From an uncultured Clostridia bacterium (GTDB lineage Bacteria; Bacillota; Clostridia; Lachnospirales; CAG-274), in contig CANRNM010000008.1 in the NCBI GenBank assembly GCA_947631975.1, positions 1-33,014 on the forward strand: 33,014 bases of DNA, in the 5' to 3' direction. Below are positions 1 through 22,676 of this stretch, one piece after another. Both the position numbers and the translations under genes were made by a program. The notes beneath the pieces were generated by a model. The model worked only from the letters and a program-made list of their open reading frames with translations. It ran no database searches and was not told the origin of the DNA. Positions within the stretch are counted from its first letter, which is position 1; every line of letters starts with the position of its first letter.

Positions 1-428
1 CCGTCAAAATTGCTGATATAGTTGTCGTACTCGCCGAAATAAGGCGCAATTACCATTACCTCGTCGCCCGGATTTATGATAGCCTTCAATGTAACATTGA
101 TACCGCCCGCAGCGCCGACCGTCATAATTATATTAGATGAGTCAAGATGCGTGCCGAAGCTCTTGTTTGTATAGTCGGCAACAGCCTGTCTTACATCCTC
201 GAAGCCCGCGTTGTTGGGATAGCCGTGAAGCTCCATTTCGGGCTCGTTCTCGGCAAGGTCAACTATTGCCTCTCTCACGCATGCGGGCGGAACAATAGAA
301 GGATTGCCAAGAGAAAAATCGTATATATTGTCTTTGCCGTACTTGGCAGCCATTATTTTGCCCTCCTCAAACATGGCTCTTATAGCGGAGCCGTTCTTGA
401 CGAGCACTTTCATTTTTTCGGAAATCAT
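1..428 (-). CDS. Pyridoxal-phosphate aminotransferase, class I/II (N-terminal part, runs off left edge)
   Basis: This is the 5' part of a minus-strand gene that continues beyond base 1; about 142 codons are visible. The translation starts MISEKMKVLVKNGSAIRAMF and contains DFSLGNPSIVPP, YPNNAGFEDVRQAV, TVGAAGGINVTLKAIINPGD and APYFGEYDNY. These match the N-terminal arm and the start of the large PLP-binding domain of fold-type I aspartate/aromatic aminotransferases. The Schiff-base lysine lies outside the window, so the substrate cannot be assigned. The ATG at 428 is supported by AGGAGG at 437-442, 8 nt upstream, and by a dedicated promoter at 459-487. Family assignment is firm; specificity (aspartate or another amino acid) is unknown. 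Confidence 0.9.
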   Translation of the reverse strand, partial: MISEKMKVLVKNGSAIRAMFEEGKIMAAKYGKDNIYDFSLGNPSIVPPACVREAIVDLAENEPEMELHGYPNNAGFEDVRQAVADYTNKSFGTHLDSSNIIMTVGAAGGINVTLKAIINPGDEVMVIAPYFGEYDNYISNFD

Positions 429-458
429 TGATATACCCTCCTGTCGTTTTTTATATAT

Positions 459-487
459 ATGATACACCCTAAAGGCAATTTTTTCAA
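459..487 (-). promoter_or_regulatory. Sigma-A-type promoter of the aminotransferase gene
   Basis: Reading the minus strand, TTGAAA (487-482) is followed after exactly 17 bp by TATCAT (464-459). Transcription would start near 452, giving a leader of about 24 nt that carries the AGGAGG site. The promoter lies downstream of the hairpin at 517-554, so the aminotransferase is expressed independently of any transcript ending there. Confidence 0.7.
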
Positions 488-509
488 TAGTTTTATTCAA
501 AATAAATAC

Positions 510-955
510 AAAGAAAAAGCTTGTTATCCGTTATTATAATCAGATAACAAGCTTATCTTATTGAATCATCAAAAATCATTTTTTTATTTCTCTTTTCTTT
601 TTAAATTATTTTTGTAATATTCTGTTTTAAATAGTGATTTGTAAATATCAAGTGTCAAAATCTATTGGCGGTTATGTTTTTTTACCGTTTATTTTACATC
701 TTCAAAACCTACAAATCTTTTGAATGTAACATCTATGTAAACAAGTCCTTGCCGTTATAATTGTTTGCTGTATCGGTTTTATGCTTATTTTTTTCTACAC
801 ATTTATTTTTCTTAAGGTTTTTATTTTATATGCTTTATTATTTTTTAAATACTTTTGTAAATGCTACAGCTTTTAAATTATAAGGCGAAATTTAAGTTTT
901 TGTTGGAATCGTCCCCTTTCATTTTTATTGAGTTATAACTTTTAAGTTATCTCTT
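510..955 (-). ncRNA. Candidate small RNA (about 445 nt) in an ORF-free intergenic region
   Basis: This gap of more than 300 bp has no convincing ORF on either strand. It does hold a strong minus-strand promoter (962-990), a predicted start near 955, a hairpin at the very 5' end of the transcript (GAG plus ATAACTT at 930-941, pairing with 944-953), and a terminator-like hairpin at 511-554. Only tiny ORFs without good ribosome binding sites occur (the longest ATG-started ones I found have 7-14 codons). I see none of the conserved motifs of RNase P RNA, tmRNA, SRP RNA or 6S RNA. It could also be a decayed gene or simply the 3' end of an unrecognised leader. Confidence 0.35.
511..554 (-). terminator. 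Rho-independent-like terminator (12-bp perfect stem)
   Basis: Arms 517-528 and 543-554 are perfect 12-bp inverted repeats (AAGCTTGTTATC type) with a 14-nt loop. On the minus strand the stem is followed by a T-rich run (TTTCTTT), so it would stop leftward transcription. The stem is AT-rich, hence weaker than a typical terminator. It ends the transcript expected from the promoter at 962-990. Confidence 0.6.
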
Positions 956-961
956 GTATAT

Positions 962-990
962 ATAATAACCTATATCACAATTTTTGTCAA
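962..990 (-). promoter_or_regulatory. Strong sigma-A-type promoter in the pnp/aminotransferase gap
   Basis: On the minus strand, a perfect TTGACA (990-985), a 17-bp spacer and TATTAT (967-962) make one of the best promoters in the window. It starts just downstream of the pnp terminator and points into about 450 nt without a gene. Confidence 0.7.
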
Positions 991-1020
991 GGGGTTTTTA
1001 TAAAAAAATTTATTTTTTTA

Positions 1021-1055
1021 TAAAAAATTTCTCCCCTCATATCAGAGAGGAGAAA
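1021..1055 (-). terminator. Intrinsic terminator of the rpsO-pnp unit
   Basis: Arms 1028-1038 and 1045-1055 pair (CTCCTCTC with GAGGGGAG, one G-U) around a 6-nt loop and are followed on the minus strand by a T-run (1027-1022). It lies about 10 nt after the pnp stop codon. Confidence 0.85.
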
Positions 1056-1064
1056 AATTAAGTA

Positions 1065-3209
1065 TTATTCGTCCTTCTTAGGCGCTTCTTTTCTTTCGGG
1101 TCTTGGCAGACAAGCCTTTCTTGAAAGATTTATCCTGCCCTGCTGGTCTATCTCGGTAACCTTTACATCTATTACGTCGCCTACCTTTACAACATCCTCG
1201 ACCTTATTCACTCTCTCGTGAGCAAGCTTTGAAATGTGTACAAGACCTTCCTTTTCGGGAGCTATCTCGACAAAGGCGCCGAATGTCATTATTCTTGTAA
1301 CCGTACCGGTGTAAACCTGACCTACCTCGGGATCCATAGCTATTATCTTTATCATGTCTATGGCTTTCTTTATAGCCTCGGCATCCGGAGAGGCAACAAA
1401 TATTCTGCCGTCCTCCTCGATATCTATGGTCTCAACGCCCGATTCTTCCTTTATCTTGTTTACTACCTTGCCCTTTGAGCCGATGACCTCGCCTATCTTC
1501 TCGGGGTCGATCTGTATGAAGTCGATCTTAGGAGCATACTTTGAAAGCTCTTTTCTGGGCTCGGGTATAGCCTTGAGCATTACCTCGTCAAGTATATAAT
1601 TTCTTGCCTTATGAGTCCTCTCTATGGCGCCCTTTATTATGGCGGGAGTAAGACCCTGTATCTTCATATCCATCTGTATGGCTGTGATACCCTCGTGAGT
1701 ACCCGCAACCTTGAAGTCCATATCGCCGAAGAAATCTTCAATACCCTGTATATCGGTGAGAAGAATGAAGTCGTCGTCAGTCTCGCCCGTAACAAGACCG
1801 CAGGAGATACCTGCAACGGGTCTCTTTATGGGCACGCCCGCAGCCATAAGCGAAAGAGTGGAACCGCAAACACTGCCCTGTGATGTGGAGCCGTTTGAAC
1901 TGAGTACTTCCGACACAAGTCTTATGGCGTAGGGGAATTCCTCCTCGCTTGGTATGACGGGAAGAAGCGCTCTTTCAGCCAAAGCGCCGTGGCCTATCTC
2001 TCTCCTGCCGGGGCTTCTGGAGGGCTTTGCCTCGCCAACGGAAAATCCGGGGAAGTTATAGTGATGTATATATCTCTTGCTGGTCTCTGAATCGTCAAGT
2101 CCGTCAAGCTTCTGCACATCGGACATAGCGCCGAGAGTGGTAACCGTGAGCACCTGCGTCTGACCTCTCTTGAAAAGTCCGGAGCCGTGTGTTCTGGGGA
2201 GAACGTCCACCTCTGCGGAAAGAGGTCTTATTTCCTCAAGGGCTCTGCCGTCGGGTCTCTTGTGCTCTCTTAATATCATTCTTCTTACGGTTTCTTTCTC
2301 GTACTTATATATAGCCTCGCCCACGGCAGCGGCAAATTCTTCCTCGTCGCCTTCTCCGAAGCGCTCAAAGAGCTTTTCGCATACCTCCGCCTCTATCTCG
2401 GCTATTTTTTCGTCTCTCACCTGCTTCATATCGGTGAAAACGGCGTCCTCCATTCTGGAGTCGCCAATGAGCTCCTTTATAGCCTCGTAAAAATCATGGT
2501 CTACGATATGCTCCTCATAGCTGTGCTTGGGTCTGCCGCACTCTGCTACTATGCCGTCTATGAACTTGCATATCTCTATATTCTGCTCATGACCGAACAT
2601 GATGGCGTTGAACATTTCATCATCGGTCACTTCCTCTGCGCCCGCTTCTATCATCATTACCTTTTCCTTTGTGGAAGCAACGGTGAGGTTCATTCTGCTC
2701 TTGGCTCTCTGCTCCGCAGTGGGGTTTATGACATACTCGCCGTCTACCATACCTACCGATACGGAGCCCGTGGGACCGTAGAAGGGTATGTCCGAAATCG
2801 AAAGCGCTATGGACGAGCCTATCATGGCGCATATCTCGGGAGCGCAGTCCTGGTCAACTGACATAACAAGAGCGTTTATTGACACATCGTTTCTGTAGTC
2901 CTTGGGGAACAGAGGTCTTATAGGTCTGTCTATAACTCTTGCGGTAAGTATGGCATGCTCCGAGGGTCTGCCCTCGCGCCTTGTAAAGCCTCCGGGTATC
3001 TTGCCTACCGAATACATCTTCTCCTCATAGTCGATCGAAAGAGGGAAGAAGTCAATGCCTGCTCTGGGCTTCTCGGAAGCCGTGGCTGTAACAAGCACGA
3101 CAGTGTCGCCGTATCTTACGATACATTCGCCGTTGGCAAGCTCGGCAACTTTGCCTATCTCAACGGAAAGCTCTCTGCCTGCCAGATCCATTTTGTAAAT
3201 CTTGCTCAT
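1065..3209 (-). CDS. pnp: Polyribonucleotide nucleotidyltransferase (PNPase)
   Basis: PNPase degrades RNA 3'-to-5' by phosphorolysis and works as a cytoplasmic trimer in mRNA turnover. The 714-aa length is normal. The order is first RNase PH core (about 10-145, with the FTRREGRPSE RNA-contact segment at 75-84), helical linker, second RNase PH core containing the LTDIQG and GDMDFK catalytic segments, KH domain (about 555-620, GSKG loop at 577-580), and S1 domain (about 630-697). A short charged tail follows. The start at 3209 has AGGAGG about 9 nt upstream. It follows rpsO with its own leader, which folds into a long hairpin (3241-3320), suggesting post-transcriptional autocontrol as known for pnp in Escherichia coli; that link is inferred here. 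An intrinsic terminator follows the gene. Confidence 0.98.
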   Translation of the reverse strand: MSKIYKMDLAGRELSVEIGKVAELANGECIVRYGDTVVLVTATASEKPRAGIDFFPLSIDYEEKMYSVGKIPGGFTRREGRPSEHAILTARVIDRPIRPLFPKDYRNDVSINALVMSVDQDCAPEICAMIGSSIALSISDIPFYGPTGSVSVGMVDGEYVINPTAEQRAKSRMNLTVASTKEKVMMIEAGAEEVTDDEMFNAIMFGHEQNIEICKFIDGIVAECGRPKHSYEEHIVDHDFYEAIKELIGDSRMEDAVFTDMKQVRDEKIAEIEAEVCEKLFERFGEGDEEEFAAAVGEAIYKYEKETVRRMILREHKRPDGRALEEIRPLSAEVDVLPRTHGSGLFKRGQTQVLTVTTLGAMSDVQKLDGLDDSETSKRYIHHYNFPGFSVGEAKPSRSPGRREIGHGALAERALLPVIPSEEEFPYAIRLVSEVLSSNGSTSQGSVCGSTLSLMAAGVPIKRPVAGISCGLVTGETDDDFILLTDIQGIEDFFGDMDFKVAGTHEGITAIQMDMKIQGLTPAIIKGAIERTHKARNYILDEVMLKAIPEPRKELSKYAPKIDFIQIDPEKIGEVIGSKGKVVNKIKEESGVETIDIEEDGRIFVASPDAEAIKKAIDMIKIIAMDPEVGQVYTGTVTRIMTFGAFVEIAPEKEGLVHISKLAHERVNKVEDVVKVGDVIDVKVTEIDQQGRINLSRKACLPRPERKEAPKKDE

Positions 3210-8006: not shown

Positions 8007-10819
8007 TAACGCTTAATTTCCTCCATTACAAAGGCTTCTACAATGTCGCCCTCCTTGATGTCGTTGAACTTATTGAACAGGAGACCGCACTCATAGCCCG
8101 CGTTTACTTCCTTTACATCGTCCTTGAATCTTCTTAAGGTAGCAAGCTCGCCGTCATATACTACTATGCCGTCTCTTACTATCCTTACCTTGGCATTTCT
8201 TACGAACTTGCCGTCGGTAACATAGGCTCCGCCTATAGTGCCCACGCCGCTTGCCTTAAAGAGCTGTCTTATCTCGGCATGACCCACTATCTTCTCCTCA
8301 TATACGGGGTCAAGCATACCCTTCATGGCTGCGGTTATATCCTCTATGGCGTTGTAAATAACTCTGTAGAGCCTTATATCCACCTTCTGATCCTCGGCAA
8401 CGTTCTTTGCGGAGGTCTCGGGTCTTACATTAAAGCCTATTATTATGGCGTTCGAAGCGCTGGCAAGCATAACGTCGGACTCTGTAACGGCGCCTACGCC
8501 TCCGTGTATCGTCCTTATCCTTACCTCGTCGTTTGAAAGCTTTTCAAGGCTCTGCTTTACAGCCTCTACCGAGCCCTGAACATCCGCCTTGATAACTATA
8601 TTGAGCTCCTTGACATTTCCGCTCTGTATCTGGTTGAAGAGGTCGTCAAGGCTGACCTTCTGAGGAGTATCCTTTATAAGCTCCTCCCTGCCCTTTGCAA
8701 TGACGGACTCTGCGACCTGCCTTGCCTTCTTTTCGTTTTCGGCAACATAGAACATATCGCCTGCCATAGGCACCTCGTTAAGACCAAGTATCTCAACGGG
8801 CATTGAGGGACCTGCCTTTTTGACCTTCTGTCCCTTGTCGTTCATCATAGCCCTTATTCTGCCGTAGGACGAGCCCGCTACAACGGGGTCGCCCACATTG
8901 AGAGTACCGCTCTGCACAAGAACCGTGGCAACTGCGCCCCTGCCCTTGTCGAGCTGAGCCTCTATGATGTTTCCTCTGGCTCTCTTGTCGGGATTGGCTC
9001 TAAGCTCCTTCATCTCGGCAACAAGAATTATCATTTCAAGAAGCGAGTCAATACCCTCCTTGCTCACTGCCGATACGGGTACGCATATGGTTTCTCCGCC
9101 CCAGTCCTCGGCAACAAGACCGTATTCCACAAGCTCCTGCTTTACTCTCTCGGGATTTGCGCCGGGCTTATCTATCTTGTTTATGGCAACTATGATCTCA
9201 ACGCCCGCAGCCTTGGCGTGGTTTATAGCCTCTATGGTCTGAGGCATAACGCCGTCGTCCGCAGCGACCACAAGTATGGCTATATCCGTAACCTGCGCGC
9301 CTCTCATTCTCATAGCTGTAAAGGCTTCATGACCCGGAGTGTCAAGGAAGGTTATGGGCTTACCGTTTACAGATACAGTATAGGCGCCTATGTGCTGTGT
9401 TATACCTCCCGCTTCCTTAGCGGTAACATGAGAATGTCTTATGGAGTCGAGAAGCGATGTTTTGCCGTGGTCTACATGACCCATAACGACTACTACGGGA
9501 GGTCTTTCCTTAAGGTCTTCCTCTGCGTCGACCTCTTCTCTGAAGGCTTCTTCAAAGAGGTCTATTTCCTCCGCCTTTTCAACTATGACATCGAAGTTTT
9601 CGCATACCTTTTCGGCTGTTTCAAAGTCGATATCCTGATTGGCAGTTGCCATAACGCCCATTTTCATAAGCTCCATTATTATAGCCGATGAAGGCTTCTT
9701 TATTTTTTCGGCAAGCTCCTTTACGGTTACGGTGTCGGAGATCTGTATTTCAAGGATTTCCTCCTCTGCCTTTGGCTCCTCTTTTACGGGAGCGGGCATG
9801 GGAGTATTCTTTGTCTTTGATTTCTTGGACTTGTTTTTCTTCTTGCCGGTTGGCATGGTATCCTCATCCGAATACCTGTCAAGCTCGTCTGAATTATTCT
9901 TATCGCGTCTTTTTTCAAGCTTCTGCTCGTATTTTTTGTTGTCGTGCTTGTTTTCTATTCTTTCACCCGAAGGACTGTCAGACCTCTTTTTCCTGCTTTC
10001 AAAGCGTCTCTCGCTTCTCTCGTCGTCGTCCTTGTCCATGCGGATGTCAAATTTTCTTTCGGGGCGTTCGCCTCTGTCGGGACGCTCGCGTCTTTCCCTA
10101 TCGGGTCTCTCGCCTCTTTCGGGGCGCTCGCGTCTTTCCCTATCGGGTCTCTCGCCTCTTTCGGGGCGTTCCCTTCTCTCTCTGTCGGGGCGCTCGCCTC
10201 TCTCGTGGCGTTCGCGTCTTTCCCTTTCGGGGCGTTCGCCTCTCTCGGGACGCTCCCTTCTCTCTCTGTCGGGGCGTTCGCGCCTTTCCCTATCGGGTCT
10301 TTCGCCTCTCTCGGGGCGTTCGCGTCTTTCCCTTTCGGGTCTTTCCCCTCTCTCGGGACGCTCCCTTCTCTCTCTGTCGGGTCTCTCGCCTCTCTCGGGG
10401 CGCTCGCGTCTTTCTCTTTCGGGGCGCTCGCCTCTCTCGGGATGCTCCCTTCTTTTTCTTTCCGCTCTTTCGGCTCTGTCGGGACGCTCCCGTCTTTCTC
10501 TTTCGGGGCGTTCGCCTCTGTCGGGACGCTCTCTCCTCTCTCTGTCGGGGCGTTCCCTTCTCTCCGCTCTTTCGGCTCTCTCGGCGCTGCGCTCGGGCGC
10601 GGCTTCCTCGCTTGGAGCGGCTGCTGCGCCTTCGTTATCCGCCGTGTTTTTAGCGCGCGTGCCTGCGGACAAAGCGGCAAGCACCTTATCCGCCACATCG
10701 TCCTCAACGCTGCTTGAATGGCTTTTAACGGAAAAGCCCATAGAATTGAGCATTTCTATTATCTCTTTATTTTCTTTTCCTGTCTGTCTGGCTATTTCGT
10801 AAACTCTCTTTTTTGGCAA
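8006..10819 (-). CDS. infB: Translation initiation factor IF-2 with large Arg/Glu/Pro repeat
   Basis: IF-2 is the GTPase that brings initiator tRNA to the 30S subunit and promotes 50S joining. I place the start at a TTG (10819) 6 nt after AGGAGGTG; a GTG at 10828 lies inside that Shine-Dalgarno sequence and is less likely. The product has 937 aa. It has an N-terminal IF2_N helical module ([20 protein letters not shown]), then a repeat of about 175 residues at 80-255 built from 14-residue [14 protein letters not shown] units, a Lys-rich linker, and a second IF2_N segment. The GTPase domain has [11 protein letters not shown] (447-457), [17 protein letters not shown] and NKID; domains II-IV complete the protein. 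The catalytic half is conventional; the repeat is unusually regular. Confidence 0.97.
10055..10582 (-). repeat. Tandem 42-bp repeat inside infB
   Basis: About eleven to twelve copies of a 42-bp unit encode GER-P(D/E)-RERRERP(D/E)R. One copy carries an extra 8-codon duplication (RERRERPD). The units are near-identical at the DNA level with synonymous and Asp/Glu switches, as expected from repeated unequal exchange or slippage. The lack of stops in every frame creates long false ORFs on both strands. Confidence 0.95.
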
Positions 10820-11450: not shown

Positions 11451-12839
11451 CTATTTTTCATCTCCGCCGTCCTCGTCGTAATCGTCGTCATAGTCGTCAT
11501 CGTCATAATCATCGTCGTAATCATCATCATAATCGTCATCGTAGTCGTCGTCATAGTCATCATCATAATCGTCGTCATAGTCGTCGTCATAATCATCATC
11601 ATAATCGTCGTCATAATCATCGTCATAGTCATCATCATAATCGTCGTCATAGTCGTCATAATCGTCGTCATAGTCGTCATAATCGTCGTCGTAGTCGTCG
11701 TCATAATCATCATCATAATCGTCGTAATCATCATAATCATCGTCGTAATTATCCTCGGGCTTTTCATCCTCGTCAAAGTTTATGAAGTCGGTAGCCCTTG
11801 CCTGCGTTTCGCTCTTTATGTCTATCTTCCAGCCCGTGAGCTTGGCGGCAAGTCTTACGTTCTGTCCCTCCTTGCCTATGGCAAGCGAAAGCTGATTATC
11901 GGGAACCACAACTCTTGCGCTCTTTTCATCGGTGTCCACATCTATTCTGACGGCTATGACCTTGGCGGGTCTTAAGGCGGCGTTTATAAATTCCGCAGGG
12001 TCTTCATCCCACGGTATTACGTCTATTTTTTCACCGCAAAGTTCATTTACAATGGCATCTACTCTTGTGCCGTTCTGACCCACACAGGCGCCCACGGCGT
12101 CAACGCCCTCAACCGTTGAATGAACTGCCATCTTTGTTCTGGAGCCCGCTTCTCTGGCTATGCCCTTTATTTCTACGCTGCCGTCAAATACCTCGGGCGA
12201 TTCCAGCTCGAAAAGCCTCTTTATAAGCTCGTAATGCGTTCTTGAAACCTTTATCTGCGGGTCCTTGTTTGTCTTTACGACCTTGAGTATATATACCTTT
12301 ATTCTTTTGCCCGTTTTGTATGTTTCTCCCGGTATCTGCTCCGAGACCTGGAGGAAGGCGTCCATCTTTCCGAGCTTTACTATAACATTCCCTCTGGAGT
12401 CCGTTCTTTCAACTATAGCCGTGTCGCACTCCCTCTCCTTTGCCACAAACTCGTTATATATCTTTTCTCTTTCAGCCTCTCTGAGCTTCTGCACAACTAT
12501 CTGCTTTGCGCTCTGCGCCGCGCTCCTGCCGAAGTCCTTGGGAGTTATGTCGTTGTCTATGAGGTCGCCGAGCTCATATGTCGGATTGAGCTTCCTGGCT
12601 TCCTCGAGGGAGATATCGGTAAATTCGTCTACTACCTCTTCAACAACCTCTCTCTGGGCGTAAGCCTTCATTTCGCCCGTCTGTCTGTCGATCTCCACCC
12701 GCATATTGGCATAGTTGCCGTAAATTTTTTTGCAGGCTGTAACAAGCGAGTTTTCTATAGCTTCAAATATTATCTCCTTGTCAATTCCTTTTTCCTTGCC
12801 TACAAGGTCCAAAGCTAAAATCAATTCTTTGCTGTCCAT
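11451..12839 (-). CDS. nusA: Transcription termination/antitermination factor NusA with Asp/Tyr-repeat tail
   Basis: NusA binds RNA polymerase and nascent RNA and controls pausing, termination and antitermination. The 462-aa product has the polymerase-binding N-terminal domain (1-130), S1 domain (about 135-200, GNVIVKLGKMDAFL), KH1 with GQNG (254-257), and KH2 with LAIGKEGQNVRLAAKLTGW (319-337). The conserved part ends near residue 355. The remaining 99 residues (about 364-462) are almost only Asp and Tyr in YDDD/YDD units, ending DEDGGDEK. The ATG at 12839 has AGGAGG 11 nt upstream. It follows rimP by 20 nt. The leader hairpin at 13351-13373 may be the site of NusA autoregulation, as known for the Bacillus subtilis operon. 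Confidence 0.97.
   Translation of the reverse strand: MDSKELILALDLVGKEKGIDKEIIFEAIENSLVTACKKIYGNYANMRVEIDRQTGEMKAYAQREVVEEVVDEFTDISLEEARKLNPTYELGDLIDNDITPKDFGRSAAQSAKQIVVQKLREAEREKIYNEFVAKERECDTAIVERTDSRGNVIVKLGKMDAFLQVSEQIPGETYKTGKRIKVYILKVVKTNKDPQIKVSRTHYELIKRLFELESPEVFDGSVEIKGIAREAGSRTKMAVHSTVEGVDAVGACVGQNGTRVDAIVNELCGEKIDVIPWDEDPAEFINAALRPAKVIAVRIDVDTDEKSARVVVPDNQLSLAIGKEGQNVRLAAKLTGWKIDIKSETQARATDFINFDEDEKPEDNYDDDYDDYDDYDDDYDDDYDDDYDDYDDDYDDYDDDYDDDYDDDYDDDYDDDYDDDYDDDYDDDYDDDYDDDYDDDYDDDYDDDDYDDDYDEDGGDEK
11460..11750 (-). repeat. Short tandem repeat encoding the NusA Asp/Tyr tail
   Basis: About 290 bp of 9- and 12-bp units (GAT/GAC and TAT/TAC codons) with frequent synonymous changes. 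The array is prone to slippage; an insertion or deletion not divisible by three would replace the acidic tail with a Met/Thr/Ile-rich frame. Confidence 0.95.
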
Positions 12840-16116: not shown

Positions 16117-16815
16117 ATGAAAAAACCTATAATAGGCGTTACGCCTCTTTTTGACACAAAAAAAGAAAGCATATGGATGCTTCCGGGCTATACGGAGGTA
16201 TTGAGCGAATGTGGAGCCTGCCCTATAATACTGCCCTTTGACAGATACAGCGTTGACGATATGCTGAACATATGCGACGGCTTCCTCTTTACGGGCGGGC
16301 ATGATGTGAATCCCTCGCTTTATTTTGAGGACAAGCTGGATGTGTGCGGCGAGATATACAGCGAGGAGGATGAGCTTGAAAAGGCGCTTTTTGAAAAAAT
16401 ATATAATAACGATATACCGCTTTTCGGCATATGCAGGGGGATACAGCTTATAAATGTGCTTCTGGGCGGAAGGCTTTATCAGGATATAGGTACGCAGATA
16501 AAAAGCGATATAGACCACACAATGAAGCCGCCTTATGACAGGCAGAGCCACAATGTGAAAATATACAAGGATACGCCTCTTTATAAGGTGATGAAAACGG
16601 ATAAAGCGGGAGTGAACAGCTATCATCATCAGGGGATAAAGGTGCTCTCGGATAAGCTTATGCCCATGGCAGAAGCCGAGGACGGCATAATAGAGGCGGT
16701 GTACTGCCCGGATAAGAAGTACATACAGGCGGTGCAGTGGCACCCGGAGCTATCGTGGAGGAAGGATAGAACGCAGTTTAACATAATGAGAGATTTTGTG
16801 GAGAGGTGCAAATAA
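16117..16815 (+). CDS. Gamma-glutamyl hydrolase-like class-I amidotransferase (peptidase C26, PuuD-like)
   Basis: A 232-aa cytoplasmic hydrolase of the class-I glutamine-amidotransferase fold. The nucleophile elbow FGICRGIQ holds Cys106, and QWHPE supplies His209 and Glu211, so the Cys-His-Glu triad is intact. FTGGHDVNPSLYF and HHQGIK are typical of the C26 family that removes gamma-linked glutamate from compounds such as gamma-glutamyl-GABA. The actual substrate is not visible, and no putrescine genes are nearby. The ATG at 16117 has AAGGAGTGA 6 nt upstream. It is a single-gene unit with a strong promoter, a leader hairpin and a downstream terminator. Confidence 0.92.
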   Translation: MKKPIIGVTPLFDTKKESIWMLPGYTEVLSECGACPIILPFDRYSVDDMLNICDGFLFTGGHDVNPSLYFEDKLDVCGEIYSEEDELEKALFEKIYNNDIPLFGICRGIQLINVLLGGRLYQDIGTQIKSDIDHTMKPPYDRQSHNVKIYKDTPLYKVMKTDKAGVNSYHHQGIKVLSDKLMPMAEAEDGIIEAVYCPDKKYIQAVQWHPELSWRKDRTQFNIMRDFVERCK

Positions 16816-16841: not shown

Positions 16842-17402
16842 TTATAACATGTCTATTTTATTTTCGGCTTCGGCAAGTATTTTTTCGACATCGGCGCCGT
16901 ATATATCCAGACCCTCTGCCGATATAAAGCGTATATCCTTTATACCGTAGAAATTTTCAGCCAGAGCGCGAATATAGTCAAAGCCCATATTGTGAACTAT
17001 TGGACCTCCCGCCGTGGTGATATAATAAAGCGTTTTTGCCCTGCACAGGCTTATAGGTACGCCGTTTTCATCATAGCGGAAGGTAATGCCGCAGACATTT
17101 ATATTCTCTGCGTATATTTTGAGAAGCGCGGGAAAAGACAGATCCCAATAAGGCGCGGCGATAACGATTATATCCGCAGCCGCAAAATCACGGGCATATG
17201 CAAATCCCTCCGCATCAAAGCTTTCCGAAGCTATGAGCTTGTCGCGGTGATAAAGAGAGCCTTCGCAAAGAGGCGCAATGTTATCTTTATCGGGGCGCAC
17301 CTCTGTTATATCGCCCTTTAATTTTTCAAGCAAGCGCTTTGCAAGCCTTAATGTGCGCGAATCCTGTCTGACGCAGGTGTTGACAAACAATATTTTTTCC
17401 AT
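16842..17402 (-). CDS. NAD(P)H-dependent FMN oxidoreductase, flavodoxin-like fold (azoreductase-like)
   Basis: A 186-aa Flavodoxin_2-type protein. ILFVNTCVRQDSRTLRLAKRLLE forms the first strand and FMN-phosphate loop, APYWDLSFPALLKIYAENI (around 103-121) the flavin-contact segment, and YYITTAGGP the third conserved loop. Such enzymes reduce quinones, azo dyes or other electrophiles with NAD(P)H. The physiological substrate is unknown. AAGGGG precedes the ATG at 17402. It starts 14 nt after the stop of the acetylglutamate-kinase homologue and is the last gene of that operon. Confidence 0.88.
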   Translation of the reverse strand: MEKILFVNTCVRQDSRTLRLAKRLLEKLKGDITEVRPDKDNIAPLCEGSLYHRDKLIASESFDAEGFAYARDFAAADIIVIAAPYWDLSFPALLKIYAENINVCGITFRYDENGVPISLCRAKTLYYITTAGGPIVHNMGFDYIRALAENFYGIKDIRFISAEGLDIYGADVEKILAEAENKIDML

Positions 17403-17416
17403 TTGATTTGCCCCTT

Positions 17417-18322
17417 TTATTTTCTGAAATCCTTTTCGTGATTATAAAGCTCCTTGTCGTTTGCAACTATGGCTGTGCCTATGCCGAAAACGGTGAAGAA
17501 CTCCAGCAATACGCTGTGCTCTATGGAGCCGTCCACTATATGTACTCTGTGAACGCCGTTGTTTATGGCGTCTACGGCGCATATAAGCTTATTGAGGGTG
17601 GCAACGTCAAGCGTTGCTTCCTCTATTATTTTTTTAGCCTCGTCTACTGTTATCATGGCTTTGGGGACTTCATTTACGCTTAGGTCGTATATGCCCTCCT
17701 CCCTTGCAAGGAAGAGGAGCTTTTCAGCCTTTAACGCCTTTGCCACGGCTCCCGCAACATCGTCCGCCTTGAGGTTATAGCTCTCGTAATCGTCACTTAT
17801 GCCTATAGATGAAATAACCGGTATGAAGTCCTTTTCAAGGAGCTCGTCTATAAGCTCCGTGTTTATGCTTTCGACCTCGCCGAAGTAGCCCATATCCACG
17901 CCCTTTACCTGCTTTTTGGTAACCCTTATGGTGGCGCTGTCCTTTCCGCATATGCCCACAGCCTTTGCGCCGTGCTTTTCTATGAGCTGAACAAGGTCCT
18001 TATTTATCTTACCCAGCACCATTTCAACGACCTCTATGGTCTCCTTGTCGGTAACTCGGCTGTTGTCGTAGTATTCTATGTCCTTGCCTATGGCTTTGAG
18101 CCAGCGGTTTATTTCGTTGCTGCCGCTGTGCACGATTATGGGCTGCATACCTATAAGCTTAAGAAGGACAATATCCTCCATTACGCTCTCTGCGACCTTC
18201 TTATCCTTAAGCACCTGACTGCCGTATTTTATGACGACCTTCTTATTATAGAAATCCCTTATATAAGGCAGAGCCTCCGTAAGTATTTCCGCCTTGTCCA
18301 CAATTTTTTCCAAATCGCTCAT
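17417..18322 (-). CDS. Divergent acetylglutamate kinase homologue (amino acid kinase family)
   Basis: The 301-aa product aligns end to end with ArgB: EALPYIRDFYNKKVVIKYG, EDIVLLKLIGMQPIIVH, SRVTDKETIEVVEMVLGKINKDLV, AVGICGKDS, VDMGYFGEVESIN, VHIVDGSIEHSVLLEFFTVFGIGT. ArgB phosphorylates N-acetylglutamate in arginine synthesis. Several catalytic loops are altered: IKYGG to IKYGS (31-35), HGGGP to HSGSN (65-69), NG(H/L)RVTD to DNSRVTD, LLTDVDGV to FLAREEGI (204-211), and GGMIPK to VATLNK (240-245). Lys32, Arg89, Asn183, Asp187 and Lys245 are kept. It has no arginine genes as neighbours; it lies between an HD-domain gene and a flavin reductase. It may be an active divergent ArgB, a regulatory paralogue or an enzyme with another substrate. 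GAGGTGA precedes the ATG. Confidence 0.8.
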   Translation of the reverse strand: MSDLEKIVDKAEILTEALPYIRDFYNKKVVIKYGSQVLKDKKVAESVMEDIVLLKLIGMQPIIVHSGSNEINRWLKAIGKDIEYYDNSRVTDKETIEVVEMVLGKINKDLVQLIEKHGAKAVGICGKDSATIRVTKKQVKGVDMGYFGEVESINTELIDELLEKDFIPVISSIGISDDYESYNLKADDVAGAVAKALKAEKLLFLAREEGIYDLSVNEVPKAMITVDEAKKIIEEATLDVATLNKLICAVDAINNGVHRVHIVDGSIEHSVLLEFFTVFGIGTAIVANDKELYNHEKDFRK

Positions 18323-18344: not shown

Positions 18345-18935
18345 TTATGGGAGGAGATAGCCCTTTTTGACGCTGTCCTCCAGAATATCCGATACAAGCT
18401 TTTTTATTCTGTCGTCTACTTTTCTTGTCTGCCACTTGCCCTTTTCGAGCACCTGCGATATATGCACATTGTTTTCGCGCCATTTTCCGCCCTGCGTGAG
18501 ATAGTTAAGAAGCAAGGGCTGGAGCCTGTCCATGGCGTTTGCAAACTGCGCCTCATCCGTGGAATTTTCCTCAAATTCAAGCCAGAGCTTTTTTAATTCA
18601 TCTCCCTGCTCTCCGAGCATTGAATAGAGCTTGTCGGCTGCCTCCGCCTCGCGCCTTGCTTTGTCGGCGTTGCCCTTTTCGTCATAAAGGTAGGTGTCGC
18701 CCGCATATATCTCCACAAGGTCGTGCATAAGAAGCATTTTTATGCACCTTGAAATATCCGTACCCTCCGGAGCATACTCCGAGAGCACAAGGGCGTACAT
18801 ACATATGTGCCAGCTGTGTTCGGCATCGTTTTCGCGCTTTATAGTGCCGTTTTCATAGTATATAGACTGCCTGTATATGCTTTTCATCTTTGAAATTTCA
18901 ACCAGAAATTCCATTTGCTTTTTGAGTTTATCCAT
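18345..18935 (-). CDS. HD-domain hydrolase (COG1896/YfbR-like)
   Basis: A 196-aa all-helical HD-superfamily protein. The metal ligands are visible: His40 in ENDAEHSWH, His71-Asp72 in LLMHDLVEIYAGDT and Asp136 in NAMDRLQP. Relatives include nucleotidases acting on deoxynucleoside monophosphates, but the substrate of this subgroup is not established from sequence. GGTGAGAG precedes the ATG at 18935. It begins 14 nt after the transketolase terminator, leaving no room for a separate promoter between them, so it is probably expressed by read-through or from a promoter inside tkt. Its stop is 22 nt before the acetylglutamate-kinase homologue. Confidence 0.85.
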   Translation of the reverse strand: MDKLKKQMEFLVEISKMKSIYRQSIYYENGTIKRENDAEHSWHICMYALVLSEYAPEGTDISRCIKMLLMHDLVEIYAGDTYLYDEKGNADKARREAEAADKLYSMLGEQGDELKKLWLEFEENSTDEAQFANAMDRLQPLLLNYLTQGGKWRENNVHISQVLEKGKWQTRKVDDRIKKLVSDILEDSVKKGYLLP

Positions 18936-18981: not shown

Positions 18982-20970
18982 TTATTTGTACAAAAGCTTC
19001 AAAGCCCTGTCGACCACATTGTCAACAGTGAAGCCATAGTGCTTGAATAACACGGAATAGGGACCAGAGCGTCCAAATTCCTTCATGCCTATTATTTCGC
19101 CGTCAAGACCTATATATCTGTACCACGACATATCAAAGGACGCCTCGACAACTATTCTCTTTGTAACATTCTTGGGCAGAACGGAGTTCTTGTATTCCTC
19201 GGTCTGCTTTTCAAACACCTCTACGCAGGGCATACTTACGACTTGGGCAGAAACGCCCTTTTCCTTGAGCACATCGTAAGCGTCGTACACAAGACCCACC
19301 TCGGAGCCCGTGGCGATAAGTATTATATCGGGAGTTTCCTTGAAGGAATCTCTTATGACATAACCGCCCTTTAATGCCTTTCTGCCGTCAATGCCTATGT
19401 TCTTGGTGGTCTGCCTTGTAAACACAAGGGATGACGGTGTGTTCTTCTCCGTAACTGCGCTGTACCATGCGGCTGCGCTCTCGTTTATGTCGCAGGGACG
19501 CCATACATTGTAGTTGGGCAGACTTCTGTAAGCCGAAAGCTGTTCTATGGGCTGATGCGTGGGTCCGTCCTCGCCTACGCCTATGCTGTCGTGAGTGAGT
19601 ATGCTTATTATGGGCAGGTGTGAAATGGCAGAAACTCTCAAAGCAGGCTTCATATAGTCGCAGAATACGAAGAAGCTTGCTATGTAGGGTCTTATGCCTC
19701 CATGATAATACATACCGTTTGCAATAGCCGTCATTGCCAGCTCTCTTATGCCATAGTGTATGTTTGAACCGTCTCTGTTTTCTTTGCTGAAATACTCTCT
19801 GTCGGGCATAACAGACTTATTGGATGGCGCAAGGTCTGCGGAGCCTCCGAAGAGATTGGGCATTTTCTTTGAAAGCATGGCAAGTATTTTGCCGGAGCAG
19901 TCTCTTGTTGCCATATCTCCCTCGTTATACCAATAGCTCTCGTCGTTTTCGAGGTCGCCCACAAAGTCGTCCTTGAGCCATGCCTCGTATTCGGCGGCAA
20001 GCTCGGGATATTTTGCCTTATATTCGGAATAGAGCTTGTTCCAGTCCTCCTCCGCCTTTTCAAGCGCAGGAATAAAGGACGCAGTGTTTTCTCTTACCTC
20101 GGAAGGCACATAGAAGTCCTCCTCGTAGTCCCAGCCGAGGCTGTGCTTTGTTGCCTTCACCTCGTCTACGCCCAGAGGCGCGCCGTGAGAGGTCTCGCTT
20201 CCCTCCTTGTTGGGCGAGCCGTAGCCTATGACCGTCTTTATCTCTATGAGCGAGGGCTTGTCCTTGACAGCCTTTGCTTCCTCAATGGCTCTGCCTATGG
20301 CGTCTATGTCCGTGCCGTCCTCAACATAGAGAGTGTGCCATTCGAGGGCTTCAAATCTGGCTCTGACATTCTCCGTGAATGTGAGCTCCGTTCTTCCCTC
20401 TATGGTGATGTTGTTGGAATCGTAAAGCACAATGAGCTTTCCGAGACCGTAAGCGCCCGCTATAGAAGCCGCCTCGTAGGATATGCCCTCCATCATGCAG
20501 CCGTCGCCGCAGAGAGCATATGAATAATGGTCTACTATATTGCAGTCGGGCGTATTGAATTTGGCTGCAAGATGAGCCTCGGCAATAGCCATGCCCACTG
20601 CGTTTGCAAGTCCCTGACCCAAAGGTCCCGTGCTGGCGTCAACGCCCGGAGTGGTACCGTACTCGGGATGTCCCGGAGTCTTGGAACCGAACTGACGAAA
20701 ATCCTTCATATCCTCAAGGCTCACATCGTAGCCGAAAAGATGCAGAAGAGAATACAAAAGCGCCGAACCGTGTCCCGCAGAAAGCACGAACCTGTCTCTG
20801 TTGAGCCAAGCAGGATTCTTGGGACTGTGCTTAAGATGCCTTGCAAAAAGCTCATATGCCATGGGAGCGGCGCCCATGGTGATGCCGGGATGTCCCGACT
20901 TGGCTTTTTCTATTGCCTCTATGCTCAGTACGCGCAGACAATTTATTGTCAGTAAATCTGAAGAATTCAT
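18982..20970 (-). CDS. tkt: Transketolase
   Basis: Transfers two-carbon ketol units in the non-oxidative pentose phosphate pathway, using thiamine diphosphate. The 662-aa length is standard. The ThDP domain shows [11 protein letters not shown] (His27), [10 protein letters not shown] (His67), [12 protein letters not shown] (115-126), and the GDGCMMEG...NN metal/diphosphate motif (155-187). The pyrimidine domain has [25 protein letters not shown] with the catalytic Glu, and [12 protein letters not shown]; a normal C-terminal domain follows. TGGAGG lies 10 nt before the ATG at 20970. It has its own promoter and a leader hairpin and ends at a strong terminator. Confidence 0.98.
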
Positions 20971-21049: not shown

Positions 21050-21078
21050 AGTATACAACAATTTTTTTGTCATTACAA
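21050..21078 (-). promoter_or_regulatory. Probable promoter of tkt
   Basis: TTGTAA (21078-21073), 17-bp spacer, TATACT (21055-21050) on the minus strand; predicted start near 21043 and a leader of about 73 nt containing the stem-loop. Confidence 0.6.
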
Positions 21079-21123
21079 GCATAAATATATTTTTTTACAT
21101 TTATTTTAAATTTGTCTTTATTT

Positions 21124-21142
21124 TTACCAAAAAATATGGTAA
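21124..21142. promoter_or_regulatory. Inverted repeat upstream of the CBS-ACT gene, possible operator
   Basis: TTACCA and TGGTAA with a 7-bp AT spacer form a 19-bp dyad about 43 bp before the CBS-ACT start, next to a poor promoter-like TTGTCT-N17-TATGGT (starting near 21114). The dyad overlaps the putative -10. A repressor site is possible; the region is AT-rich, so chance is also plausible. Confidence 0.3.
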
Positions 21143-21184
21143 TATATTTTATAAGAAAAAAATTTTTACGGGGGTGTATTATGT

Positions 21185-21826
21185 ATGTATGTACATGAAA
21201 GAATGACAAGAAGACCGACCGTTGCAATGCCCGACCAATCGGTGGCTAAGGCATACCAGCTCATGCAGGAGAACAGGTTTTCGCAGCTTCCTGTTGTGGA
21301 CGACGACAACAAGCTTATAGGTCTTGTTACGGAAAAACTTCTCGCGGAGGTAAATCCGTCAAGCGCCACATCACTCAGCGTATATGAGATAAATTATCTT
21401 TTGAGCAAGACAAAGGTAAAGGATATAATGAAGACGGGTATATTCAGAATAAGCAGGGACGCCCTGCTTGAGGACGCCGCACTTGTTATGAAGGAAAACA
21501 GGATTAGCTCCCTGCCTGTTACCGACGGCGAATATCTTGTGGGCATAATCACAAGAACGGATATATTCAGAGCCTTTATAGACATAATGGGCGTTAAATC
21601 GGAGGGAACTAGGATCGCCATATCCACAAAGGACAGGATAGGCGTTTTTGCCGAGGTAACGCAGATATTTGCTTCTCATAACATAGATATAAGGAATATA
21701 AGCAACATAGTTGAAAACGGCACAATAGAGATGACGGTAAAGGTGCGTTCGCACAATGTTGCGGAAGTGGTGGAGGAAATAAAGGCAAAGGGATACAGCA
21801 TTGATTCAATAAAAGATGTGAGATAA
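21185..21826 (+). CDS. CBS-CBS-ACT domain protein (AcuB-like)
   Basis: A 213-aa cytoplasmic ligand-sensing protein. The first CBS motif covers about 5-55 (MTRRPTVAMPDQSVAKAYQLM, FSQLPVVDDDNKLIGLVTE), the second about 75-130 (VKDIMKTGIFRISRDALLEDAA, ISSLPVTDGEYLVGIITRTD), and a C-terminal ACT domain about 143-213 (DRIGVFAEVTQIFASHNIDIRN). CBS pairs usually bind adenine nucleotides and ACT domains amino acids, so it probably senses both; its target is unknown. Of the tandem ATGs, 21181 runs into a stop after five codons; 21185 is the start, with GGGGGTG upstream. It is divergent from tkt and ends at a bidirectional terminator. Confidence 0.88.
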   Translation: MYVHERMTRRPTVAMPDQSVAKAYQLMQENRFSQLPVVDDDNKLIGLVTEKLLAEVNPSSATSLSVYEINYLLSKTKVKDIMKTGIFRISRDALLEDAALVMKENRISSLPVTDGEYLVGIITRTDIFRAFIDIMGVKSEGTRIAISTKDRIGVFAEVTQIFASHNIDIRNISNIVENGTIEMTVKVRSHNVAEVVEEIKAKGYSIDSIKDVR

Positions 21827-21830
21827 AATG

Positions 21831-21860
21831 AAAAGGAGACTTGATAGGAGTCTCCTTTTT
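21831..21860. terminator. Bidirectional terminator between CBS-ACT and dapB
   Basis: AAAAGGAGACT (21831-21841) pairs with AGTCTCCTTTT (21849-21859) around a 7-nt loop, with T-rich sequence on both sides. It serves the plus-strand CBS-ACT gene and probably dapB, whose stop lies 58 nt away on the minus strand. Confidence 0.88.
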
Positions 21861-21917
21861 ATTTTTTATAAAACATTAGCATAAAAATAACGATCAGCAA
21901 GAGTTTTGGTTTTTTTA

Positions 21918-22676
21918 TTATATCTCCGACATTACATCCTGCATATCGTACTTGCCGGGTTTTTTATCCTTTATGAACTTGGCGGCTTTGAGGGCGCCGA
22001 CTGCAAAGACCTCCTTGCTGTAAGCGGAGTGGGTAAACTCCACCACCTCGTCCTTGCCTGCGAATATCACCTCGTGGTCGCCCACAATGGTCCCGCCCCT
22101 GACAGCCGAAAAGCCAAGCTCCTTCCTGTCTCTTTTCTGCCTTACGCTGCTTCTGTCATACACATATTCAAGAGCTCCGCCCACGCTTTCGTTCACGGCA
22201 TCGCCAAGAAGAATTGCCGTTCCACTGGGAGCGTCTATTTTTTGATTGTGATGTCTTTCGACTATCTCCACATCGAAGCCCGCTTCATAGAGCACACTGC
22301 TGTATTTTTTGAGTATGGATGCAATGAGATTGATGCCGAGGCTCATATTTGCGCTTCTGAACATAGGCACGCTCTGCGAAGCCTTATCTATGAGCGCAAG
22401 TGTTTCCTCACTCAAGCCCGTTGTGCATATAACGGCGGGTATGCCCTTTTCAACGGCATATTCCACGACCTGCGGAACAGCCGAAGCCGTAGAGAAGTCT
22501 ATAATGACGTCAGCGTCTATATTGCAGTCCTTTATATTGCCGAAAACGGGGAAATCCGTATTTGCGGGCACCATATCCACGCCCGCGGCAATCACGGCGT
22601 CCGCGTCGTTTTTGCAAAGTCCGCATATGACCCTGCCCATTTTGCCGTTACATCCGTTCATTATAATTTTTGTCAT
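21918..22676 (-). CDS. dapB: 4-hydroxy-tetrahydrodipicolinate reductase
   Basis: Reduces hydroxy-tetrahydrodipicolinate with NAD(P)H in the lysine/diaminopimelate pathway. The 252-aa protein has the nucleotide loop GCNGKMGR (8-15), IDFSTASAVP, the catalytic ERHHNQKIDAPSGTA (140-154, with His142/His143 and Lys146), and RGGTIVGDHEVIF. AGGAG is 8 nt before the ATG at 22676. It is the last gene of asd-dapA-dapB, 28 nt after dapA, and so under lysine riboswitch control. Confidence 0.97.
   Translation of the reverse strand: MTKIIMNGCNGKMGRVICGLCKNDADAVIAAGVDMVPANTDFPVFGNIKDCNIDADVIIDFSTASAVPQVVEYAVEKGIPAVICTTGLSEETLALIDKASQSVPMFRSANMSLGINLIASILKKYSSVLYEAGFDVEIVERHHNQKIDAPSGTAILLGDAVNESVGGALEYVYDRSSVRQKRDRKELGFSAVRGGTIVGDHEVIFAGKDEVVEFTHSAYSKEVFAVGALKAAKFIKDKKPGKYDMQDVMSEI

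Follow-up and report, generated by a model that had tools for sequence, protein, structure and literature searches.

An acetylglutamate kinase paralogue with rebuilt phosphate loops, encoded beside an HD-domain phosphohydrolase gene in three genera of Clostridia

In the hexameric arginine-sensitive N-acetylglutamate kinases (NAGKs; ArgB), an N-terminal helix interlaces subunits (PMC4490483), and arginine sensitivity is associated with a signature made up of a tyrosine in that helix, a sheet lysine and the motif E-(L/I)-(F/M)-(T/S)-x-x-G-x-G-T (PMC3236213; PMC4490483). The ligand roles of NAGK residues used below are taken from earlier work (PMC3329491; PMC3236213). The AAK domain of NAGS is a known version of the same fold that binds arginine and does not carry out the NAGK job (PMC4490483). 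A search of the open-access literature returned no description of an ArgB paralogue of the kind presented here.

The window, which is the whole 33,014-nucleotide stretch of DNA from an uncultured Clostridia bacterium that was analysed, encodes a full-length ArgB homologue whose gene is here named argB2 (protein ArgB2; Table 1). Residues 29–262 match the curated NCBI model for argB (TIGR00761) with 200.8 bits against a cut-off of 151.3, which is the only curated NCBI cut-off that ArgB2 passes; its best score with the LysZ models (119 bits, cut-off 223) and that with the glutamate 5-kinase model TIGR01027 (19.2 bits, cut-off 186) do not reach the family cut-offs. Arginine-sensitive NAGKs with solved structures align with ArgB2 over nearly its full length, the best being those of Thermotoga maritima (PDB code 2bty; E 7e-72) and Synechococcus (PDB codes 2jj4 and 2v5h). 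An AlphaFold2 monomer model built with 34 related sequences as input has a mean pLDDT of 87, and the solved folds nearest to it are arginine-sensitive NAGKs (VIA Z 36–40), with ArgA at about 33 and E. coli NAGK at about 30. There is no fused GNAT acetyltransferase domain, the chain stopping 18 residues past the arginine motif.

Table 1. Features of the argB2 locus (positions in the window) and of its product
Feature	Position	Strand	Basis or remark
argB2: ArgB/NAGK-like AAK-fold protein, 301 aa, with KYGS/HSGS/DNSR/LAREEGI/VATLNK loops	17417..18322	-	ATG start, homology, model
argB2 N-terminal helix, residues 4–24, EALPYI	18251..18313	-	Sequence and model; PMC4490483
argB2 arginine-site motif E-F-F-T-x-x-G-x-G-T, residues 274–283	17474..17503	-	Sequence comparison
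argB2 C-terminal tail with LYxHE, residues 292–301	17420..17449	-	Common to Lachnospiraceae-type canonical ArgB only
HD_3 (PF13023, YfbR/HDDC2-like) metal-dependent phosphohydrolase, 22 bp upstream of argB2	18345..18935	-	Paired with argB2 in 13/13 genomes
Transketolase tkt (TIGR00232), 46 bp upstream of the HD_3 gene	18982..20970	-	Its pairing with HD_3 appears to predate argB2
Flavodoxin-fold NAD(P)H/FMN reductase, 14 bp downstream of argB2	16842..17402	-	Beside argB2 only in the three closest genomes

Thirteen ArgB2 sequences were compared with 111 canonical ArgBs in E. coli NAGK numbering, which was verified on the E. coli ArgB sequence at K8, G11, G44, G45, R66, N158, D162, D181, G184, G213 and K217. 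The equivalents of the catalytic residues K8, D162 and K217 and of the N-acetylglutamate-binding residues R66 and N158 are invariant in all 13 ArgB2 proteins, as are the loop residues G10 and G45 (G67 of the window protein). A reading of this DNA from the sequence alone had described a full-length ArgB homologue with most of its glycine-rich loops altered and with K32, R89, N183, D187 and K245 retained; all of the motif changes that it listed, and all five of these residues, are indeed present. Every ArgB2, and none of the 111 canonical proteins, is altered at G11 (S or R), G44 (S), position 46 (S; G46 in canonical ArgB) and D181 (R, T or Q). N160 has become K in 12 of the 13 and M214 is altered in 12, the position of G212 is altered in all, that of G213 in eight (one ArgB2 genus retains this glycine) and that of G64 in seven. 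The position of P216, which is occupied by Val-Lys in E. coli ArgB and by proline in the canonical set of 111, differs in 13/13. All of the columns altered in ArgB2 are invariant among the canonical sequences. The acceptor-side loop HSGS is fixed across the clade and the nucleotide-side loops vary by genus (LAREEG, LARNDD, LSTEEG or LTQGNG; DVATLNK, SIGNYNK, QMSLK or PNSTLKK). The arginine-sensitive signature is present, its landmarks Y20 (in the N-terminal helix), sheet K201, E274, T277, G280, G282 and T283 being invariant and the N-terminal helix motif conserved in 13/13; the second position of the arginine motif is F rather than L/I in most ArgB2 proteins, as it is in Lachnospiraceae-type ArgB.

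ProB is an active kinase, and in the E. coli enzyme T stands at the position of G11 and S at that of G44; the window genome's own ProB reads KVGT and SSGA. PyrH, an active kinase of the same superfamily, has K at the position of D181. Since the same kinds of substitution occur in these active enzymes, no single loop substitution in ArgB2 would appear to be fatal by itself. The loops that hold the ATP phosphates and the acyl phosphate are changed, as the sequence-only reading held, but to call them disabled would be too strong.

Elsewhere in the same assembly, on another contig, a search of the genome for canonical ArgB found an argB (286 aa; KYGG, HGGG, GGMLPK) between argJ and argD, and argC and argF were also found. 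With a canonical argB in the genome, argB2 is not needed for arginine; ArgB2 as the genome's only ArgB, one of the outcomes envisaged at the outset, is ruled out, and a role for ArgB2 as a slow ArgB serving arginine synthesis finds no support. A canonical ArgB co-occurs with argB2 in each of 12 genomes inspected, and a second match occurs in the remaining genome (G266). On contig 11 of a relative (G127), two equal-scoring canonical argB matches lie in inverted orientation at 229–1080 (+) and 21067–21918 (-), possibly as a result of assembly duplication. In a sister genus (g7; G012, G027, G033, G232, G252 and G259), a full ArgB match is absent in most genomes, which suggests that arginine synthesis by the ArgB route may have been lost in most of them.

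A profile search found argB2 in 13 of 48 genomes of the family and in three of its 11 genera, namely in six of seven genomes of the window's genus, five of five of a second genus and two of three of a third. Across 392 genomes of the order, ArgB2-like scores were confined to the 13 family members, the next-best matches inspected being HGGG-type canonical ArgBs, and the sole match outside the family in a sampled search of the class was likewise canonical (G151, locus L062). Scanning of 84,980 species for HSGS[DN]EIN and EALPYIRD returned HSGS-type genes solely in records matching the argB2 group, and in a sample of the phylum the window gene alone matched an exact pattern; these scans demand exact motifs, so more diverged relatives of ArgB2 could escape them. 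Among these gut Clostridia, most of them uncultured, one carrier has a name, Candidatus Gallispira edinburgensis, the others being uncultured Clostridia and other metagenome-assembled genomes. The 13 genomes have in common the HSGS loop, the loss of the G11, G44 and D181 equivalents and a place directly after the HD_3 gene, usually behind transketolase. The suggestion that the loop variants might form a conserved clade with the same neighbour is thereby borne out, the clade being recovered with support of 100/100.

ArgB2 of the window's genome (G000) and that of G002 differ by one amino acid at a dS of about 0.32–0.38, and within genera dN/dS is about 0.005–0.06, as low as for the canonical ArgB of the same genomes. 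The gene is under strong purifying selection. The occurrence in 13 genomes together with the low dN/dS excludes sequencing errors, which had been entertained as a source of the loop changes, as well as a one-genome oddity; argB2 encodes a genuine paralogue of ArgB, maintained by selection and restricted to this lineage. Across genera ArgB2 changes faster than ArgB, the identities between G000 and G015 being 60% and 83%, respectively.

Arginine-pathway genes are absent from the immediate neighbourhood of argB2, as had been noted. Short gaps, purine-rich ribosome-binding-like sites within them (AACGAGGTGAAAATAAATG; AAAGGGGCAAATCAAATG) and the failure to find a minus-strand terminator-like site between tkt, HD_3, argB2 and the flavin reductase gene in the window make it likely that these four genes are co-transcribed. 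Of the two partners proposed from the sequence, an HD hydrolase and a flavin reductase, both adjoin argB2 here, but only the former does so throughout the clade, the latter being found in 3/13 genomes; like the neighbouring C26 peptidase and PNP genes, the flavin reductase gene was rejected as a core partner, since all of these stand beside argB2 only in close relatives. At the loci examined, an HD_3 gene immediately precedes each HSGS-type gene, which, wherever there is enough sequence, also lies behind transketolase with one exception, whereas HGGG-type genes adjoin argJ and/or argD in nearly all cases (at the exception, L072, no arg neighbour was detected). The tkt–HD_3 pair, which is also present in several further genera of the family where argB2 is lacking, appears to be older than argB2. 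Two comparisons single out HD_3–argB2 as a unit: in G006 these genes are adjacent and tkt is no longer beside them, while G003, the sole member of the window's genus without argB2, also lacks HD_3 and has kept its canonical argB (L044).

The product of the HD_3 gene has YfbR/HDDC2-type proteins as its sequence relatives with structures. Relatives of YfbR and HDDC2 are 5'-nucleotidases, and we know of no reaction that joins an ArgB2-type protein to an HD_3 protein. HD_3 alone is a weak basis for inferring function because it follows tkt in many family genomes that have no ArgB2. Neither an ArgC-like reductase nor any other acyl-phosphate-using pathway gene is conserved beside argB2 at the loci compared.

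Several other features of these loci may be recorded. A gene for a peptidase C26/class I glutamine amidotransferase (16117–16815, +) is convergent to the operon in the window, and in G019 (L040) a copy with 62% identity to it precedes argB2 by about 4 kb. In the window's genus, argB2 is followed by the flavin reductase gene or by a small cupin-like gene; in the third genus (L039 and L043) the following gene starts like a flavodiiron/FprA-type protein, which may be coincidence. Further away in the window, a NusA-like ORF (11451–12839, -) ends in a long, repetitive and acidic tail of DYDD type at the C terminus, encoded by about 21 copies of a 12 bp repeat at 11473–11725, and a complex GC-rich tandem-repeat array with periods of 42, 84 and 192 bp lies nearby (10055–10564).

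The residue pattern and the genomic setting lead us to propose that the job of ArgB2 is probably new and differs from that of ArgB. The reading that we favour, tentatively and at somewhat less than an even chance, is that a horizontally acquired Lachnospiraceae-type NAGK gene has been remodelled into a retuned small-molecule kinase. Such a gene would have become fixed behind the resident tkt–HD_3 pair in the ancestor of the three related genera. Its product would still fold, and probably assemble, like an arginine-sensitive NAGK, with R89 and N183 holding an N-acylated glutamate-like carboxylate and K32, D187 and K245 serving phosphoryl transfer; the phosphate and nucleotide loops (KYGS/KLGR, HSGS, AREEG and VATLNK) may have been retuned for another donor, another acceptor or the other reaction direction. 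The retained C-terminal site may allow arginine, or a ligand like it, to switch the protein, and gene order hints that it may act together with the HD_3 phosphohydrolase. Were this so, a free-standing AAK-fold protein would serve as a new enzyme or as a regulator responsive to arginine or N-acyl-glutamate and would form, with HD_3, an undescribed kinase–phosphohydrolase pair, a proposal that we regard as possible and rather unlikely.

A catalytically dead sensor is a serious competitor, although on balance a doubtful one. In this case ArgB2 would make no use of ATP, would bind arginine and/or N-acetylglutamate and would either regulate HD_3 or join putative mixed hexamers with canonical ArgB through its N-terminal helix. 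The conservation of the arginine-site landmarks and of the helix motif throughout the clade, the company of a canonical ArgB in the genomes inspected and the precedent of the arginine-binding NAGS domain (PMC4490483) all fit such a role. Moreover, D181 and G44 are lost in every member, and the equivalents of D181, G212/G213, M214 and P216 have been lost with replacements that vary from genus to genus in the clade; such loss and drift on the nucleotide side, the pattern expected from lost ATP binding, lean towards ATP use that is absent or non-canonical. Against this, the equivalents of K8, D162 and K217, all three of which are lost in E. coli ArgA, whose AAK domain senses arginine, are kept in 13/13 ArgB2 proteins, for which a pure sensor would have no obvious need; this retention leans towards kinase chemistry and weakly favours a repurposed kinase over a dead sensor, although catalytic residues can persist for structural or anion-binding reasons.

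It is improbable that ArgB2 is a redundant, slow NAGK whose product is still N-acetylglutamyl phosphate and whose regulation may have been altered. Its score lies well above the NCBI argB cut-off, and the R66 and N158 equivalents and the catalytic residues are in place; however, the genome has its canonical argB, the changes at G11, G44, G46 and D181 separate all ArgB2 proteins from all canonical ones, and argB2 is linked to HD_3 with no arg genes beside it.

With regard to origin, a tree of 65 sequences places ArgB2 in a single clade on a stem of 1.63 changes per site, outside the clade formed by the family's own ArgB (100/99) and attached among Lachnospiraceae-type ArgBs, the exact attachment being weakly supported (85/96, not starred). 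The tail GxGTAI-xNxxxLYxHE is found in 13/13 ArgB2 proteins and in many Lachnospiraceae-type canonical ArgBs, and is missing from every canonical ArgB of the family itself that was examined. The simplest reading, and a probable one, is that a Lachnospiraceae-type argB was acquired once by horizontal transfer and came to lie behind tkt–HD_3, after which it diverged for a long time and was remodelled. An origin by vertical duplication of the ArgB that belongs to the family itself is very improbable: the weak attachment and the long stem mean that long-branch effects are possible, and a tree without the C-terminal tail, which again gives two separate clades, carries a long-branch warning, but an AU test rejects the union of ArgB2 with the family's own ArgB (p-AU 0.008). 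The tree, this test and the LYxHE tail together argue for horizontal acquisition and against duplication of the resident gene. That argB2 is merely a transferred copy decaying towards a functionless pseudogene, as its long stem might suggest, is scarcely credible in view of a frame open in 13 genomes, the low dN/dS, the conserved tight spacing to HD_3 and purifying selection sustained over three genera.

Its score above the curated cut-off will lead annotation pipelines to label ArgB2 an acetylglutamate kinase; this label is not to be trusted, as a true ArgB is encoded elsewhere in the genome and ArgB2 has rebuilt phosphate loops. With apparently one transfer, three genera and one constant neighbour, ArgB2 provides a well-bounded case of the repurposing of an allosteric amino-acid kinase. 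It also offers a direct test, within the superfamily, of which is the better predictor of activity, the retention of catalytic lysines or that of glycine loops.

Among known systems, ArgB2 most resembles the arginine-sensitive hexameric ArgBs (TIGR00761; PDB codes 2bty, 2v5h and 2buf), with which it shares homology over its whole length at 40–55% identity, the AAK fold, the N-terminal helix, the substrate-binding Arg and Asn, the catalytic Lys, Asp and Lys and the arginine-site motif. It differs from them in lacking the equivalents of G11, G44, G46 and D181 in 13/13 cases, in the replacement of the GGMxPK loop, in being encoded beside HD_3 and tkt rather than argJ and argD and in coexisting with a canonical ArgB. 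The AAK domain of ArgA (PDB codes 2r8v and 3d2p; Z of about 33) likewise combines the arginine-site motif and N-terminal helix with altered kinase loops, but in ArgA an acetyltransferase domain is fused to it, and ArgB2 has none; furthermore, E. coli ArgA has no Lys at the positions of K8 and K217 and has Glu at that of D162, whereas ArgB2 keeps all three residues. Like ArgB2, ProB departs from glycine in its first loop (KxGT) and carries Ser where canonical ArgB has G44 (SSGA, TSGA), but it retains the D181-type Asp and a GGMxTK loop, and neither ProB nor PyrH carries all of the ArgB2 changes together. LysZ, the [LysW]-aminoadipate kinase, shares the AAK fold with ArgB2 at about 30% identity (Z 29) and acts on an N-blocked dicarboxylic amino acid.
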